NCBI GenBank assembly: GCA_020434465.1
Contig: JAGRAS010000126.1
Coordinates: 1 to 5,538, forward strand
Direction: 5' to 3'
DNA: 5,538 nt
From: Bdellovibrionales bacterium
GTDB lineage: Bacteria; Bdellovibrionota; UBA2361; JAGRAS01
Under the pieces are notes generated by a model. It searched no databases. It was not told the origin of the DNA and saw nothing but the letters and a program-made list of their open reading frames with translations. The position numbers were made by a program, and so were the translations under genes. Shown here one piece after another: positions 1-5,538 of this stretch (positions within the stretch are counted from its first letter, which is position 1; the number at the start of each line of letters is the position of its first letter).

Positions 1-1159
1 TAGCCTGAAATTGCCCAGCTCTTTTCATTCCCCTTACTTGCCAAACCTCGATCTTACCATCTTTTAAAGCAAGAAAAACATATTCTCCATCTCCTGAGAT
101 AAGGATTTTTTCAACACTTTCTAACTGCGCTTCCCTAGGAATTTTTTTTCTATTTGTTTTCTCTATAAAGCCTCTGCCCCAAAACTTATTATCATCATAC
201 TTTCCACCAAATTGATCGCTGTCATAAAAAAGCCAAACATTCATTCCACCTTTCCAATCACCACTAAAAGCAATTCTTCCAAATGGATGATAAGCTAAGC
301 CACTAATAACAGTTGAGTGTCCTATATAACGTTCAAAAGAAAGATCTCTTTCTTTATTACTTTCAGCATTTTCGTACTCAATAAATTTCCAACGATATAC
401 AATACTATCTGCCCCACCGACTAGGATCGCATCTCCTTCAGGAGAAAATGCTATTTCGTAAGGTCTTGCTTTAAGCAATTCCAACTCTCTTGTTTCAATC
501 CCTTCTTCAAGTATTTTTATCGAAGAACCATCATAAACAGCCAGTCGCCCACTAGCGGCGCTATAGTCTGCTACTCGAGCCTCAAATGGGAGTTCCCCCA
601 AACTGACCAAGCCCCCAGTACGCTTAAGGCCAAATAATTTTTTATCATCGCTAATTGCCAAGGCTTCTAAATCACAAGGTGCAATCCCACCTAATGAAAA
701 AAGATGAATAATTTCAGAGGTTTGGCTAGGCGAACTAGTACTTAACTTGCTACAATCAAGATTTAGCAGGTTTAGTTTCAAACTGGCAGCAAAATTGAAC
801 TGCCCAATAGCTTGTAATAGACTTGAATCTGAATTATTAATATTACTCGATATTTTGGCTAATGCTGGAAATGTGTCCAGTTTAGAAGTAGCTCGGGTTC
901 CTCCATTTGATGAGTGAGAACTAGTTGCTGAAATTTCTAAGAGAGAGATATTCTCACTTGTTAAGTTTTCAGTATTAAAAGAACCAGTTACGGAACGTAT
1001 TGATTTTGTAGACAGGCTAGCCGTAAAAAAAGATTTATCTAGAGGTAGTGCTTCTAGAGGCAATGCTTCGCAATATCTATATGATAAAAATGTTAGTTCT
1101 ACAAAAATACTAGTAAGAACTAATAACTTAGCCAATTTGAGATTGGATGCTAAAGCCAT
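1..1159 (-). CDS. WD40-repeat protein with N-terminal membrane/export segment (3' end off window)
   Basis: The frame is open from an ATG at 1159 to the left edge and gives 386 residues; the C-terminus is missing. Residues 1-30 look like a signal peptide or signal anchor: Lys8 and Lys11, then a hydrophobic run of about residues 12-27 interrupted by Glu21. No lipobox is seen at Cys30. Residues about 31-190 are Ser/Asn/Leu-rich with no recognised domain and include a duplicated EALPL. WD40-type blades follow: about 233-259 (AFSPEGD...VYRWKF), 280-311 (GHSTVISGLAYHP...NVWLF) and 348-375 (ILISGDGEY...IEVWQV), so a beta-propeller probably extends past the edge. WD40 propellers generally serve as protein-binding platforms; the partner is unknown. 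Neither possible start has a clear Shine-Dalgarno. The frame stays open back to an ATG at 1384, but I prefer 1159 because the extra 75 codons contain no Ala and few G-starting codons, and a perfect TATAAT lies just upstream of 1159. I am confident it is a gene, fairly confident of the WD40 fold, and unsure of location. Confidence 0.82.
   Translation of the reverse strand, partial: MALASNLKLAKLLVLTSIFVELTFLSYRYCEALPLEALPLDKSFFTASLSTKSIRSVTGSFNTENLTSENISLLEISATSSHSSNGGTRATSKLDTFPALAKISSNINNSDSSLLQAIGQFNFAASLKLNLLNLDCSKLSTSSPSQTSEIIHLFSLGGIAPCDLEALAISDDKKLFGLKRTGGLVSLGELPFEARVADYSAASGRLAVYDGSSIKILEEGIETRELELLKARPYEIAFSPEGDAILVGGADSIVYRWKFIEYENAESNKERDLSFERYIGHSTVISGLAYHPFGRIAFSGDWKGGMNVWLFYDSDQFGGKYDDNKFWGRGFIEKTNRKKIPREAQLESVEKILISGDGEYVFLALKDGKIEVWQVRGMKRAGQFQA
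1040..1069 (-). repeat. 15-bp tandem duplication inside the WD40 gene
   Basis: Two adjacent 15-base units, 1040-1054 and 1055-1069, differ at two positions. On the minus strand each unit encodes Glu-Ala-Leu-Pro-Leu, giving EALPLEALPL just after the hydrophobic N-terminal segment. The unit is five codons long, so the duplication keeps the frame. It probably lengthens a linker between the membrane segment and the rest of the protein. Confidence 0.75.
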
Positions 1160-1190
1160 TTTGAACTTTTGTAATGGTACATTACCAAAT

Positions 1191-1218
1191 TTGTCAGTGA
1201 GAGAGTTCCCTTTATTAT
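1191..1218 (+). promoter_or_regulatory. candidate sigma70-type promoter reading towards the helicase-like gene
   Basis: TTGTCA at 1191-1196 matches the -35 consensus at five of six bases. A 16-base spacer follows, then TATTAT at 1213-1218, also five of six for the -10. Transcription would start near 1225 and give the gene at 1424 a leader of about 200 nt. An alternative -10, TATACT at 1216-1221, would need a 19-base spacer. A second, weaker candidate nearer the gene is TTGTTT at 1363-1368 with TATTTT at 1385-1390, but in such AT-rich sequence that match means little. No operator could be recognised. Confidence 0.4.
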
Positions 1219-1219
1219 A
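1214..1219 (-). promoter_or_regulatory. perfect -10 hexamer for the leftward WD40 gene
   Basis: Read on the minus strand, these six bases are TATAAT, the exact -10 consensus. A start near 1207 would leave a leader of about 48 nt before the ATG at 1159. No good -35 is seen at 16-18 bases (CCAAAA, ACCAAA or CACCAA), and a TG pair lies one base too far upstream for a standard extended -10. The hexamer overlaps the rightward -10 on the other strand. Confidence 0.35.
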
Positions 1220-1231
1220 CTCATGACAACT

Positions 1232-1317
1232 GTATTTTTGGTGTTGAATGTATTTTTGATAATGAAATTGTTCTTTAATGTGCTTTCTTTGTTTCTGTTT
1301 GCCACGTTTCTGTTTGC
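1232..1317. repeat. short direct repeats with periods that are multiples of three
   Basis: Two repeat pairs lie in this T-rich stretch. GTATTTTTG occurs at 1232-1240 and 1250-1258, 18 bases apart. GTTTCTGTTTGC occurs at 1291-1302 and 1306-1317, 15 bases apart. Both periods preserve reading frame on either strand. On the plus strand they encode Val-Phe-Leu and Phe-Leu-Phe-Ala repeats in a small open frame. On the minus strand they encode Gln-Lys-Tyr and Lys-Gln-Lys repeats in the upstream extension of the WD40 frame. They could equally be slippage products in non-coding DNA. Confidence 0.6.
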
Positions 1318-1342
1318 TAGTAATTTGGCGAAGCTTCAGTAA
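1262..1342 (+). CDS. doubtful 26-aa hydrophobic leader ORF
   Basis: An ATG at 1262 opens 26 codons ending in TAA at 1340-1342. The product starts Met-Lys, has an unbroken apolar stretch over about residues 3-19 apart from Asn6, Ser9 and Thr15, and ends ASNLAKLQ. It resembles a bare signal peptide or a one-helix membrane peptide. An in-frame ATG at 1223 would make it 39 residues, but that codon falls at the predicted transcription start. It would lie in the leader of the helicase-like gene, 81 bases before that gene's ATG. No ribosome binding site is visible. Any T-rich strand translates to Phe and Leu, so the hydrophobicity alone proves nothing. I recognise no family. Confidence 0.18.
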   Translation: MKLFFNVLSLFLFATFLFASNLAKLQ

Positions 1343-1413
1343 AAAAAGCTTAAATAAATTTATTGTTTTTAATTTATTCGACATTATTTTTAAATCTTAA
1401 ATTCAACTTAAAT

Positions 1414-1423: not shown

Positions 1424-3253
1424 ATGCAGGAAGAGACTACATCAACTGGCTATTCTCAACAAGAAAACACTAATAGTGAAGTAGCCGATGCTCAAACTTA
1501 TGACTCATTTACCTCTAACCAGGAAATTTTAAGTGCTCTTAACAGCGAAGGCTTTAACAGCCCATCTGGCTTAGAAGTATCAATTCTTAAAACTTTAAAA
1601 GATGGTTGCAGTGTAATTGTTTACGGAAAACGCTGCGATACTAAGGTCACAAATTCTATTATAGCAGCTACTTTGCTTTGCAGTAATTCTGAAGTAAGAA
1701 TAATATTCGGTTCAAACGATGCAAATTCTCAGAAAACTGGCTCTGCAACTTTCAAAAAACTATCTTTTGATACGGCTTCTGTCAAAAAACCTAAAGATTC
1801 CAAAGTAGCATTTGGAAGCTTGGATGAAATTGATAGCGCGTTAAACGAAAGTGATTTTTCACCAAGTGATTTCGACTTATTGTTTTTAGACGTAAGTACA
1901 GATTCAGAATATTCAAAAGATTCAGCTTTAATTAAAAATCTTATAAAAAAATATCTGGACTTAAATCCAAATGGGCAAGCTTTGGTATGCTTAACAAATG
2001 CAGATTCTAGCCTTGCAAGTGAAATCTCTTCAGCTTCAGGTGGTTTAACTCCTGTTGAGATTAATGCCAATAAATATGGAACAGTTGAAACAGTACATCA
2101 ATACTATGAAATAGTAAGTAATGATCTTTTATCAAAACCAAATGCATTATGCGATATACTTCAAGCTGAAAACGTTCCTGCTGCAGCGATTTTTTGTAAC
2201 ACTCCATCTGATGCAGACTTGCTTGACGCAATCTTAGCTAAGCGCGGAATCAGTAGCAGAAAACTTATAGGTAACATTCCTTACCATATTGCAAAAAATG
2301 CCGTGGCTGACTGCACTAGTGGCAGATATGAAGTCTTGGTAGTTACAGATATTTCTGGACAGCAAATGGACTTAGGTGAATTGGAACTAATTGTAAACTA
2401 CTCTATCCATAGTGACGCAAATACTTACTTAAAAAGAATGGGTAAAGATGGTGGACAAGAAAAGGTTATTAGTCTTGTAACTCCGCTTGATTTTGGAAAT
2501 TTCCATTTTCTAAAAAAGGTAGTTAAATCTGAGTTCATAAAATGTGAATTACCTTCAGCGGAAGTTCTTGCTTCAGCCAAGTTCAATAAGCTTTGCAAAG
2601 ATGCCAGAGCTGCAACTTTAGCTGATCAAGAAGCCTGTCAAAGTCTTTTGGCTCAGATTCTTGAGCATGAAGATAAGGATACAATTTTAACTTACTTAGT
2701 ACATAATACTATAAGTGAGATTCCTGAACTTAAACAGCAGGGCGGTAGAAAACGTGGGCCTAAAAACGATCGCGATCGCGACTTCCGTGAAAATAGAAGC
2801 GAAAGTTCTCATGATCGTCGCCACTATCAAGATGAAGGCGATGATAATAATTTCGACCGTAACTCAAAGCGTGAACATTCTGAACCAGTCGCCCCTCCAA
2901 ACTTTGACTACAGATATTACCTTGGCCAAGGTCTGGAACATGAATTTACAGAGGACAAACTAATCGAGTTGATTAAAAGCAAAACCGATCAGGAGGCTGA
3001 TGTAATCAAACGCGTTAGCATTCGCGACTTTTATTCATTCGTAGATTTTGATGAAAAAATTGCAGAAACACTTGTAAATCAACTTGCAGACGCCGAGCTA
3101 GATGGTAATAAATTGGTGCTGTTAAAAGCAGCTTCAATTGCTCAACCAAGAGAAAAACAAGAATCCTCTGATTCAATGGAAGCTGCTGAGCTTGAGACCG
3201 CAGAAGTTGATGCGCTTGAAAGTGAAGAAATCGCGGCTAATGAAGAAGAGTAA
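1424..3253 (+). CDS. degenerate DEAD-box (DeaD/CsdA-like) protein with DbpA-type RNA-binding domain; probable pseudo-helicase
   Basis: This 609-aa protein follows the order of DeaD/CsdA. It has an acidic, Ser/Gln-rich leader (1-30), RecA-like domain 1 (about 30-235), RecA-like domain 2 (about 240-378, e.g. IFCNT 256-260, VLVVTD 304-309, LIVNYSI 322-328, then LPSAE 376-380), a helical region (381-435), a charged Arg/Asp-rich linker (437-490), a DbpA-like RNA-binding domain (about 494-570, with SIRDFYSFVDF near 532-542) and an acidic tail (573-609). The length is close to that of E. coli CsdA. Catalytic motifs are eroded. The Q-motif glutamine aligns with Glu51. The P-loop AxTGxGKT becomes GKRCDTKV (68-75), keeping only the lysine. 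DEAD becomes DVST (156-159). SAT is lost near 189-193. Motif V keeps TD but has QQ instead of RG. HRxGRxGR becomes KRMGKDGG (337-344), losing both arginine-finger positions. The intact 609-codon frame and good ribosome binding site argue against a pseudogene. I infer RNA binding without ATP-driven unwinding, in the cytoplasm. The DeaD-family relationship is fairly sure; the function is not known. Confidence 0.85.
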   Translation: MQEETTSTGYSQQENTNSEVADAQTYDSFTSNQEILSALNSEGFNSPSGLEVSILKTLKDGCSVIVYGKRCDTKVTNSIIAATLLCSNSEVRIIFGSNDANSQKTGSATFKKLSFDTASVKKPKDSKVAFGSLDEIDSALNESDFSPSDFDLLFLDVSTDSEYSKDSALIKNLIKKYLDLNPNGQALVCLTNADSSLASEISSASGGLTPVEINANKYGTVETVHQYYEIVSNDLLSKPNALCDILQAENVPAAAIFCNTPSDADLLDAILAKRGISSRKLIGNIPYHIAKNAVADCTSGRYEVLVVTDISGQQMDLGELELIVNYSIHSDANTYLKRMGKDGGQEKVISLVTPLDFGNFHFLKKVVKSEFIKCELPSAEVLASAKFNKLCKDARAATLADQEACQSLLAQILEHEDKDTILTYLVHNTISEIPELKQQGGRKRGPKNDRDRDFRENRSESSHDRRHYQDEGDDNNFDRNSKREHSEPVAPPNFDYRYYLGQGLEHEFTEDKLIELIKSKTDQEADVIKRVSIRDFYSFVDFDEKIAETLVNQLADAELDGNKLVLLKAASIAQPREKQESSDSMEAAELETAEVDALESEEIAANEEE

Positions 3254-3288: not shown

Positions 3289-4995
3289 TTAAGGGATAGT
3301 CAAACGTTGGCCAATCTTTAAAGATGTCCCTTTTAGTTTATTTAAGCTTTTAAGAGAATTTATACTCACTCCATACTTCTTACTAATAGACCAAAGAGAA
3401 TCGCCGTTAGCCACTATATAGCTTTTACTAATAGTATTGCTTTTAGCGCTGGTGCTTTTATTGGTTCCACTAGTATTTGATAAACTTAAAACTTGACCAA
3501 CTCTAATTGTATCAGTTTTAAGCTTATTATTAGACTTTAACTTACTAGTTTTAATTCCATATTTTGCAGCAATCTTGTTCAAGCTATCACCTGGCTTTAC
3601 CGTATATGTGCCTTCTGGAGTACTCTTATAGGCAGTCTTAACTTCAACTTTACTTCTTTCTTTAACAACTAGACGCTGTCCAATAACAACCCTATCACTT
3701 GAGAGGCCATTTATACTTTTTATTTTACTTACACTAGTCTTATATTTGCGTGCGATATTACTTAAAGTATCTCCTTTACGAACTGTATATATATTTCCAC
3801 CATAAATTGAGCTGGCAGAATTTAAAGTGGGCTCAGGTATTTTTAAACTACGCAATTTATTAGCATATGCAATTGGCACTTTTAATTCATATCCCTGAGG
3901 GATTCTATATGCTCCTTGTAATACAGAATTGCTCAACCCATAATTCGTTCTTTGAATATCATCTTTAGAAATCCCTGTTTTATTTATCACATAAGAAATA
4001 GAGGTTGGGTGAGTTAGTTTTCTACTGTAAATCTTTAGTGGCTTCTCTTGACGTGTATAAGGAAAAAATCTTTCTTTGTAATCATATATATCAAGTGCCG
4101 CTAGAAATTCTGGATAAAAATTTGTTGATGCAAATCCAAAAACTCTAGTTTTCTGATGCTCTACAATATCAGCGATATTTTTTGTTCCAATACTTTTAAC
4201 TTTTTTAGAAACACCAGCGACTCCATGGTTATAAGAGGTAAGCGCTAAGGGCCAGGTTCCCAGGGTCTTGTAAGCAGCTTTCAAATACTTCGCTGCTGCA
4301 TGCGAGGCAGAAACCACATCTCTTCTTTCATCTACATAGTTATTTACTGTCATATATAATTTACCGGTTCCACGCATGAATTGCCAAATCCCTGCAGCAC
4401 CAACTGAACTATAAGCTTTATAATCAAATGAGGATTCAACAAAAGGAAGTCTTGTTAACTCAATAGGTAGCCCATGATCATTTACAAAAATTTTCTCAAT
4501 CAGATGCAAATATCTTCCTGAACGTGAAATAGCATCGGCATACTTTTCTTTAATTCCAGTTTGTGATCTTATTAAACCATCTTTAAGAACCTCTTTATAC
4601 TTCGCAGTACCTCCAGGCAAAAAGCTCATCCGAGCCGAAATTCTAGTTTCCATTGGAGTATTTGGAACCTTCCCAGAAGCTAAGCTATTTAGCGCCGTCT
4701 TTATTTCAGCTTCAGCTTTTTTTATTCTAGATTTCTTATATGATTCAAATCTAACATCCCCCATCTGCTTGGCTTCAGCAGTCATGTCAAGAACTTCAAA
4801 TACTACTTGTGGAAAATTTCGGTGATGCAAAACTGAGTGATATTTTCCATATTTTGAAAAGATATCAATCCAAAAATCAACTCTTGCTCTCATTTTAGCT
4901 GGAGTTTTAAATTCCGAATGTCGTTTCAATGGATCAGCAAAGCTACTACTATTAATAATTAACAATATTACAAATAAGAGCTTAAATTTTCCCAT
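3289..4995 (-). CDS. mltD: MltD-like membrane-bound/periplasmic lytic murein transglycosylase with three LysM repeats
   Basis: This family cleaves the MurNAc-GlcNAc bond of peptidoglycan non-hydrolytically, forming 1,6-anhydroMurNAc ends in the periplasm. The 568-aa product has a signal peptide (Lys3, Lys5, hydrophobic 6-14, likely cut after Ala20 in SSFA-DP); no lipobox cysteine is present. Residues 21-160 form a charged helical region. The SLT domain spans about 165-290 and has the catalytic glutamate Glu187 (LPFVESSF), GAAGIWQFM at 199-207, a conserved AAKYL helix and SYNHG at 254-258. A degenerate LysM-like stretch sits near 330-374, and clear LysM repeats follow at about 402-444, 464-506 and 526-567, each opening Y-x-V-x-x-GD-(S/T)-L. 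The last repeat ends the protein. E. coli MltD is a shorter lipoprotein with fewer LysM repeats. The start is set by the signal peptide; the AGG one base before the ATG is too close to be a good ribosome binding site. It lies 21 bp after the dacB-like gene and is probably co-transcribed with it. Confidence 0.93.
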   Translation of the reverse strand: MGKFKLLFVILLIINSSSFADPLKRHSEFKTPAKMRARVDFWIDIFSKYGKYHSVLHHRNFPQVVFEVLDMTAEAKQMGDVRFESYKKSRIKKAEAEIKTALNSLASGKVPNTPMETRISARMSFLPGGTAKYKEVLKDGLIRSQTGIKEKYADAISRSGRYLHLIEKIFVNDHGLPIELTRLPFVESSFDYKAYSSVGAAGIWQFMRGTGKLYMTVNNYVDERRDVVSASHAAAKYLKAAYKTLGTWPLALTSYNHGVAGVSKKVKSIGTKNIADIVEHQKTRVFGFASTNFYPEFLAALDIYDYKERFFPYTRQEKPLKIYSRKLTHPTSISYVINKTGISKDDIQRTNYGLSNSVLQGAYRIPQGYELKVPIAYANKLRSLKIPEPTLNSASSIYGGNIYTVRKGDTLSNIARKYKTSVSKIKSINGLSSDRVVIGQRLVVKERSKVEVKTAYKSTPEGTYTVKPGDSLNKIAAKYGIKTSKLKSNNKLKTDTIRVGQVLSLSNTSGTNKSTSAKSNTISKSYIVANGDSLWSISKKYGVSINSLKSLNKLKGTSLKIGQRLTIP

Positions 4996-5016: not shown

Positions 5017-5538
5017 CTATTTTACAATTAAGTTTAAAAACTGATCTTCTCTTGTAAGTGCTTCAGACGCAGATCCTACGTTGTTTTGAAGTAGAGCAAA
5101 AGTCATCATTTGTTGATTTTTATCATATATATACCCTGCAAGCGTTCTTACGCCATCTATAGAACCGGTTTTGGCAAAAACATTTTGACTACTTACAGCT
5201 CTTCTTGTTTTGAGGGTTCCACTTTTCCCGTATTGAGATAGAGAATAAATTAAAGGAACAAAGTTGTTTGGGTCTTTAGCAATTATAGCAAGCAAGCTAC
5301 TAAGAAAACTAGCCGTAAGTCTGTTATCATGACTTAACCCACTAGCATCATGTATCATCGAAGATTTTCCACCAGGAATTTGCTTGGCCACTTTATTCAA
5401 AACACCCAGCCCTCGTTCTCTATTCATAATACCATTAGAATTTTTTGAAACTGCTAAGAGGATCTGCTCAGCAATGAAATTTGTACTATAATGATTTAAA
5501 TCTCGAAGAATTAATGAAAGTGGTTTGGAATCAACTTC
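5017..5538 (-). CDS. dacB: D-alanyl-D-alanine carboxypeptidase/endopeptidase, PBP4 (DacB) type, peptidase S13; C-terminal part
   Basis: The frame enters from the right edge and ends with TAG at 5017-5019, giving the last 173 residues. Enzymes of this family remove terminal D-Ala from stem peptides or cut DD-cross-links in the periplasm. The second penicillin-binding motif, SxN, is Ser-Thr-Asn at fragment residues 18-20, followed by the family-typical ..FIAEQILL. DASGLSHDNRL at 64-74 matches the conserved S13 D-x-SGLSR-x-NR block. The third motif KTG is at 123-125 (FAKTGSIDGVRTLAGY), with GTLKTR before it. The catalytic SxxK motif and the signal peptide lie outside the window, so activity cannot be fully judged, but everything visible looks intact. 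The ATG at 5427 is internal and is not the start: 37 upstream codons carry the SxN motif. The frame is shared with the downstream mltD-like gene, separated by this TAG and seven codons. Confidence 0.92.
   Translation of the reverse strand, partial: EVDSKPLSLILRDLNHYSTNFIAEQILLAVSKNSNGIMNRERGLGVLNKVAKQIPGGKSSMIHDASGLSHDNRLTASFLSSLLAIIAKDPNNFVPLIYSLSQYGKSGTLKTRRAVSSQNVFAKTGSIDGVRTLAGYIYDKNQQMMTFALLQNNVGSASEALTREDQFLNLIVK

Follow-up and report, generated by a model that had tools for sequence, protein, structure and literature searches.

A DeaD/CsdA-type pseudohelicase in a little-known bacterial lineage, probably retained as an RNA-binding scaffold or helicase cofactor

We studied a gene in a 5,538-nucleotide stretch of DNA (here called the window) from a Bdellovibrionales bacterium (GenBank assembly GCA_020434465.1, contig JAGRAS010000126.1). 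The gene is a single open frame of 609 codons on the plus strand (1424..3253), running from an ATG start, preceded by TAGGAATCAAT, to a TAA stop. Its sequence strongly indicates that the product is a pseudohelicase, i.e., a DeaD/CsdA-type protein without a recognizable ATPase. The gene occupies the locus that holds an intact DeaD in sister genomes, and the protein probably now serves, independently of ATP, as an RNA-binding and possibly dimeric scaffold or helicase cofactor. At the level of sequence, motif loss, one main clade, selection in pairs of relatives, a retained RNA-binding domain (RBD), an acidic tail, and a conserved locus are all evident.

An earlier note, made from the DNA letters alone, had proposed a dismantled ATPase at positions 1625 to 2455, an interval that corresponds exactly to residues 68 to 344, from the P-loop through motif VI. 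Its motif calls held when we aligned the protein with relatives of the same lineage. The P-loop AQTGSGKT has become GKRCDTKV (C71, T73, and V75, with K74 retained), DEAD of motif II reads DVST (156-159), SAT of motif III reads LTN (190-192), TDIAARGLD of motif V reads TDISGQQMD (308-316), and HRTGRTGR of motif VI reads KRMGKDGG (337-344), with K341 and G344 in the arginine finger positions. The QxxR motif (IVa), absent from the earlier note, reads YHIAKNA. Pfam matched Helicase_C (PF00271; residues 238-341; 5.7e-11) and DbpA (PF03880; residues 497-564; 1.5e-9), both with scores above the curated cutoff, and DEAD (PF00270) was absent even at an E value of ≤10. The protein thus lacks each of the features by which we judged a competent DEAD-box helicase (motifs I, II, III, and VI and Pfam DEAD). 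Among 12 NCBIfam rows, 11 were DEAD-box helicase families and the twelfth was RecQ; all were far under the cutoff and began at residue 209 or later.

The same loss extends through the relatives. In an alignment recount, motifs I, II, III, and VI were each intact in none of 39 dismantled rows, compared with all 15 full-length relatives; all four together were intact in 13 of 15 relatives that lack the RBD (one has DEVD and one is cut). Because the 39 dismantled rows all lack the motifs and intact copies are found both at this locus in sister genomes and elsewhere as separate genes, the loss is old. The recount, the missing Pfam DEAD match, and the absence of the first RecA domain (RecA1) from many relatives bear out the dismantled ATPase. 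The description of the protein as full length is right for the window but not for the family, as RecA1 is missing from 24 of the 37 clade members that we examined. A divergent yet active ATPase relying on other residues is hardly credible: K74 and D156 are preserved, motif fragments survive in a few relatives (APAGSGKR in L005, HRTGRT in P0002, HRMGRT in L010), and Pfam DEAD is still matched in L005 and L071, but no dismantled row has an intact motif I, II, III, or VI, and members without RecA1 have no P-loop domain at all. We rejected this reading on those two grounds. The string DEAD in L004 is a coincidence, the aligned motif II position there reading FVAG.

By descent, the window gene belongs to the DeaD/CsdA lineage, judged on its RecA2 domain, its DbpA-type RBD, and the homology of its RecA1. 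The RecA1 remnants are homologous to intact DeaD RecA1 domains (with 13 remnants set against 15 intact domains, hhalign gave a probability of 98.7, or 97.7 without L005 and L071). The phmmer alignment to DeaD (5gi4) extends to residue 413, and the predicted structure superposes on 5gi4 over residues 221-435 and on the Hera dimer fragment 3eaq over residues 221-430. The structure model was rebuilt with dismantled rows only, as the first alignment contained intact helicases that might have biased it. The protein is accordingly predicted by modeling to keep RecA folds and a dimerization-type helical region, so that a helicase fold, here predicted, is combined with motifs that are nonfunctional by sequence.

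To recover relatives, we scored 7,997 candidates from a 5.8-billion protein database and obtained 26 matches. A second search (7,998 candidates; E ≤ 1e-20) gave 19 matches, of which only the short P0027 was new, and missed P0008 and P0009; the family size is thus a lower bound. P0002 to P0011 are dismantled relatives; nine of them have 416 to 510 amino acids (aa), with RecA2 beginning within about 30 residues of the start, and P0004 retains a RecA1 remnant. P0025, which has no DEAD annotation and reads like a frameshifted ordinary helicase, was not used. When we scanned a single genome for each GTDB species, we obtained 18 loci, 17 from the same family and one (L018) encoding an ordinary DEAD-box helicase; the 16 of those genomes that we examined all fall in one small phylum (45 species genomes). 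The window gene groups with these relatives in the RecA2 and WD40 trees. In the RecA2 tree, built without P0015 (a fragment) and CORE_L092 (cut), the 37 dismantled rows form one clade (99/98) among intact rows. Thirteen members, the window included, have a vestigial RecA1; its presence switches at least six times on the RecA2 tree, with the RBD kept. Every clade row has a long open frame, seven starting with MQE and two with MQD, and in L011 and L015 an internal ATG 3′ of the RecA1 remnant is an alternative possible translation start. Loss of the ATPase with the RBD kept across a little-known bacterial lineage suggests reuse as an RNA-binding helper protein rather than decay.

We estimated the ratio of nonsynonymous to synonymous substitutions (dN/dS; NG86) for 12 pseudohelicase pairs, none including the window gene; the L023/L025 comparison was excluded because of a wrong frame. 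Four pairs had saturated dS, and the eight measurable ones, all from one subclade, gave whole-gene values of 0.033 to 0.137, which are rough because dS was 0.8 to 1.7, and which are not near 1. By region, dN/dS was 0.012 to 0.064 in RecA2, 0.023 to 0.247 in the RBD, and 0.07 to 0.36 in the tail; the helical region gave 0.114 to 0.217 in six pairs and was saturated in two. The relatives of the window gene are thus evolving under purifying selection, and the family is retained. Three positions are fixed differently in the dismantled and intact sets (K>P261, R>K280, and S>G283), and 30 and 71 of 245 compared columns, respectively, are at least 90% conserved.

These results bear on whether the gene is a pseudogene or a recently decayed normal deaD, possibly with assembly errors. 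Intact versions stand at the same locus in sister genomes, and the remnant of RecA1 changes more quickly than RecA2 does (dN/dS of 0.171 in L011/L015, the sole measurable pair). This reading is nevertheless very improbable given the open frames in all 37 clade rows, the single deep clade, the low dN/dS, and the conserved residues. The window's own RecA1 remnant (195 codons) carries an in-frame coding signal: the probability of its being stop free is 4.6e-7 given its composition, and its codon score is 0.233 in frame, the two remaining forward frames scoring −0.024 and −0.157 and one reverse frame 0.174, with 0 of 1,000 base shuffles reaching the in-frame score. Pseudogene, recent decay, and assembly error were rejected on the relatives' dN/dS, open frames, and deep conservation; for the family, its sequences already contradict decay.

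The locus itself is conserved. Next to the pseudohelicase, 26 of the 27 clade loci that we inspected (the window, L001 to L017, and L069 to L077) carry a divergent WD40-repeat gene; in the exception, L012, the contig stops 684 bases upstream. All 10 sister copies have DEAD, Helicase_C, and DbpA, and in seven sister loci (L078, L079, L080, L083, L084, L086, and L088) the intact DeaD with its RBD lies in the same spot; L081 and L082 are situated elsewhere, and the start of L085 is truncated. Three additional dismantled genes lie beside the WD40 gene, in L087 (genome G024), L135 (G028), and L136 (G021). None of the three has RecA1 or an intact motif V or VI, and all keep DbpA; L087 and L135 gave a match to Helicase_C, and L136 gave none.

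In trees of the WD40 protein (without LOC_L079) and of IleS (without the IleS of G001 and G005), these three genomes group with intact-copy genomes (100/100 in both). In the IleS tree, G024 pairs with G028 (100/100), and G021 stands next to an intact-copy genome (97/93). Parsimony on both trees gives three dismantlings. Approximately unbiased (AU) tests failed to reject a single clade for the three extra genes (P = 0.339 for WD40 and 0.058 for IleS) or a tree with every dismantled row on one side (0.30 and 0.148), and the RecA2 tree could not place L087, as a clade uniting it with the others had an AU P of 0.58. The sequences thus suggest, but do not prove, that dismantling at the WD40-linked locus recurred. 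The IleS proteins in L159 (G005) and L160 (G001) are only 32 to 34% identical to the query, compared with 41 to 76% in the other 21 matched genomes, which suggests a different or replaced type.

The main clade also differs in its C terminus. The tail that follows the RBD carries a net negative charge in 36 of the 37 clade rows, all but L094 (median, −12), and in none of the 13 intact ones (medians, +11 and +8). The acidic flip is absent from L087, L135, and L136, and by sequence the acidic tail is a derived character of the main clade. RBD and tail borders for these counts were set by a pattern plus a fixed length, and P0015 and P0016 (in which the RBD pattern could not be found) and LOC_L095 (truncated) were left out.

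A separate, complementary loss was seen in other DeaD copies. In 15 genomes there is a member of this DeaD subfamily without the RBD; all 15 copies have DEAD and Helicase_C, and none has DbpA. These RBD-less copies are 47 to 56% identical to P0013, the next best intact matches being at 41% or lower. They occur in 14 of 26 clade genomes compared with 0 of 11 full-length-copy genomes (Fisher P = 0.0022, ignoring relatedness); G038 has an RBD-less DeaD but no pseudohelicase. In a DbpA-domain search over the 45 genomes, 29 of which have a dismantled gene (26 clade genomes plus G021, G024, and G028), the sole detected DbpA-type RBD lay on the dismantled gene in 25; another DbpA domain is present in three (G003, G043, and G021), and none was shown in G007. 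A further DEAD-box protein with an intact P-loop was read in 15 of genomes G001 to G016, the exception (G010) being a 1.5-Mb bin. Close downstream of the RBD-less DeaD, on the same strand, L037 and L038 each have a gene for a distinct second DEAD-box helicase (673 aa in both), as do L023, L024, and L026.

With the RBD-less DeaD in 14 of 26 clade genomes, we lean towards a scaffold or cofactor over two other roles. As a dominant-negative regulator, the protein would form a heterodimer with an active DeaD through its dimerization-type helices, damping or gating its activity. The window protein is predicted to keep that region, and the match of 5 of the 15 RBD-less copies to P0013 runs beyond RecA2 (ending at 492-556); however, the match ends with RecA2 (423-431) in the other 10, the helical region is less constrained than RecA2, and 12 clade genomes have no RBD-less copy, all of which makes regulation improbable. 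As a stand-alone RNA chaperone or annealer, the RBD and linker would act alone, the RecA remains being structural ballast. The RBD persists through the gains or losses of RecA1, and the RNA-binding mode of the Hera RBD is described as consistent with a general RNA chaperone (PMC3695512). Yet the lowest dN/dS is in RecA2 rather than in the RBD, and the family-specific fixed residues also lie in RecA2, so we find this role rather improbable.

How a scaffold or cofactor might work can be sketched. DeaD and DbpA act in ribosome assembly, and by analogy with these proteins and Hera, the RBD and linker would hold RNA, perhaps rRNA. The RecA2 body and the helices would make a dimer and docking face, the acidic tail may contact basic partners, and the separate motif-intact DeaD, where present, would supply the ATPase. 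A more specific version, which we put forward tentatively, is a helicase split in two when duplication was followed by complementary losses: at the ancestral locus, one copy would have given up the ATPase and become the RNA-targeting subunit (RecA2, helices, linker, RBD, and acidic tail), and the other would be an RBD-less ATPase core, with targeting and unwinding in trans and the locus dismantled two or three times independently.

Several observations weigh against a scaffold or cofactor. The window RBD (net charge, −7) and tail (−12) are both acidic, so RNA affinity could be low, and RBD charge does not differ between dismantled and intact rows (P = 0.18). The tail is poorly constrained in sequence (in L004/L077, its 36 codons gave a dN/dS of 0.86). 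Nor does the partner model hold generally, because those 12 clade genomes show no RBD-less DeaD, although several are bins of 1.2 to 1.7 Mb, and one of the 11 comparison genomes (G019) has a copy cut before the RBD, a further caution on a Fisher test blind to relatedness. The RBD-less copies are not clearly one clade in the trees (the second built without CORE_L092 and OUT_L034) and therefore do not demonstrate a single duplication.

Table 1. Features of the window and additional dismantled genes at other loci (coordinates of the latter refer to the locus named)
Feature	Position	Strand	Basis or remark
Pseudohelicase gene, 609 aa	1424..3253	+	Helicase_C and DbpA matched, DEAD not
N-terminal peptide MQEETT...	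1424..1483	+	MQE or MQD starts found also in RecA1-less relatives
Vestigial RecA1 domain, residues 21-215, motifs lost	1484..2068	+	Fold predicted
Former P-loop GKRCDTKV, residues 68-75	1625..1648	+	Alignment with relatives
Former DEAD, now DVST, residues 156-159	1889..1900	+	Alignment with relatives
Former SAT, now LTN, residues 190-192	1991..1999	+	Alignment with relatives
Degenerate RecA2 domain, residues 225-376	2096..2551	+	
Degenerate motif V TDISGQQMD, residues 308-316	2345..2371	+	Alignment with relatives
Former motif VI KRMGKDGG, residues 337-344, without both finger arginines	2432..2455	+	Alignment
Helical region like DeaD/Hera dimerization region, residues 377-441	2552..2746	+	phmmer and predicted structure
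R/D-rich linker, residues 442-492, low model confidence	2747..2899	+	Predicted local distance difference test (pLDDT) <50 at 443-487; sequence
DbpA-type RBD, residues 493-574	2900..3145	+	PF03880
Acidic C-terminal tail, residues 575-609, net charge −12	3146..3250	+	Sequence
WD40-repeat gene, divergent, conserved neighbor, runs past window edge	2..1384	-	
Additional dismantled DeaD gene	L087 7365-8846		
Additional dismantled DeaD gene	L135 6732-8102		
Additional dismantled DeaD gene	L136 5303-6796		

Two further genes in the window, both on the minus strand and convergent to the pseudohelicase gene, encode a LysM/SLT lytic transglycosylase (3289-4995) and an S13 D-Ala-D-Ala carboxypeptidase (5017-5538); each family was seen in 8 of the 18 loci. 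Rfam gave no match at gathering scores, and a promoter and terminator scan found fewer sites than in shuffles.

Pseudohelicases are rarely described, and no bacterial DEAD-box pseudohelicase was among the matches listed in open-access PMC text. A lineage-wide bacterial example, with RecA1 ranging from vestigial to absent and intact controls at the same locus, would allow direct study of the role of a DEAD-box protein in the absence of ATP and of whether RNA targeting is separable from unwinding; the motif-intact RBD-less DeaD copies are a concrete candidate partner. The window family shares the order RecA1-RecA2-helices-linker-RBD with DeaD/CsdA, CshA, Hera, and DbpA (solved relatives include DeaD 5gi4, CshA 5ivl, Hera 3eaq and 4kbf, and DbpA 7pli). 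Unlike them, it has no catalytic motifs and its RecA1 is vestigial or absent, and unlike its intact same-lineage relatives, whose tail is neutral or basic, the window clade has an acidic tail. In Hera, the RBD is described as the major determinant of RNA binding (PMC3695512), which makes RNA binding without an ATPase plausible. The bacterial helicase PriA of Deinococcus radiodurans offers a parallel: it is reported to have no ATPase or unwinding activity, with DNA binding and interaction with DnaB kept, although PriA is a DNA replication-restart helicase and not a DEAD-box protein (PMC4504706). Another likeness is Utp25/Def of the eukaryotic small-subunit (SSU) processome, a DEAD-box-like pseudohelicase with vestigial motifs and two RecA-like folds, proposed to be a helicase cofactor or scaffold and called, in a 2022 paper, only the second proposed pseudohelicase (PMC9539457). 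Utp25 is eukaryotic and keeps both RecA domains, and the excerpt of that paper mentions no DbpA-type RBD, whereas most of the window clade has dispensed with RecA1 and sister genomes still carry intact versions at its locus.
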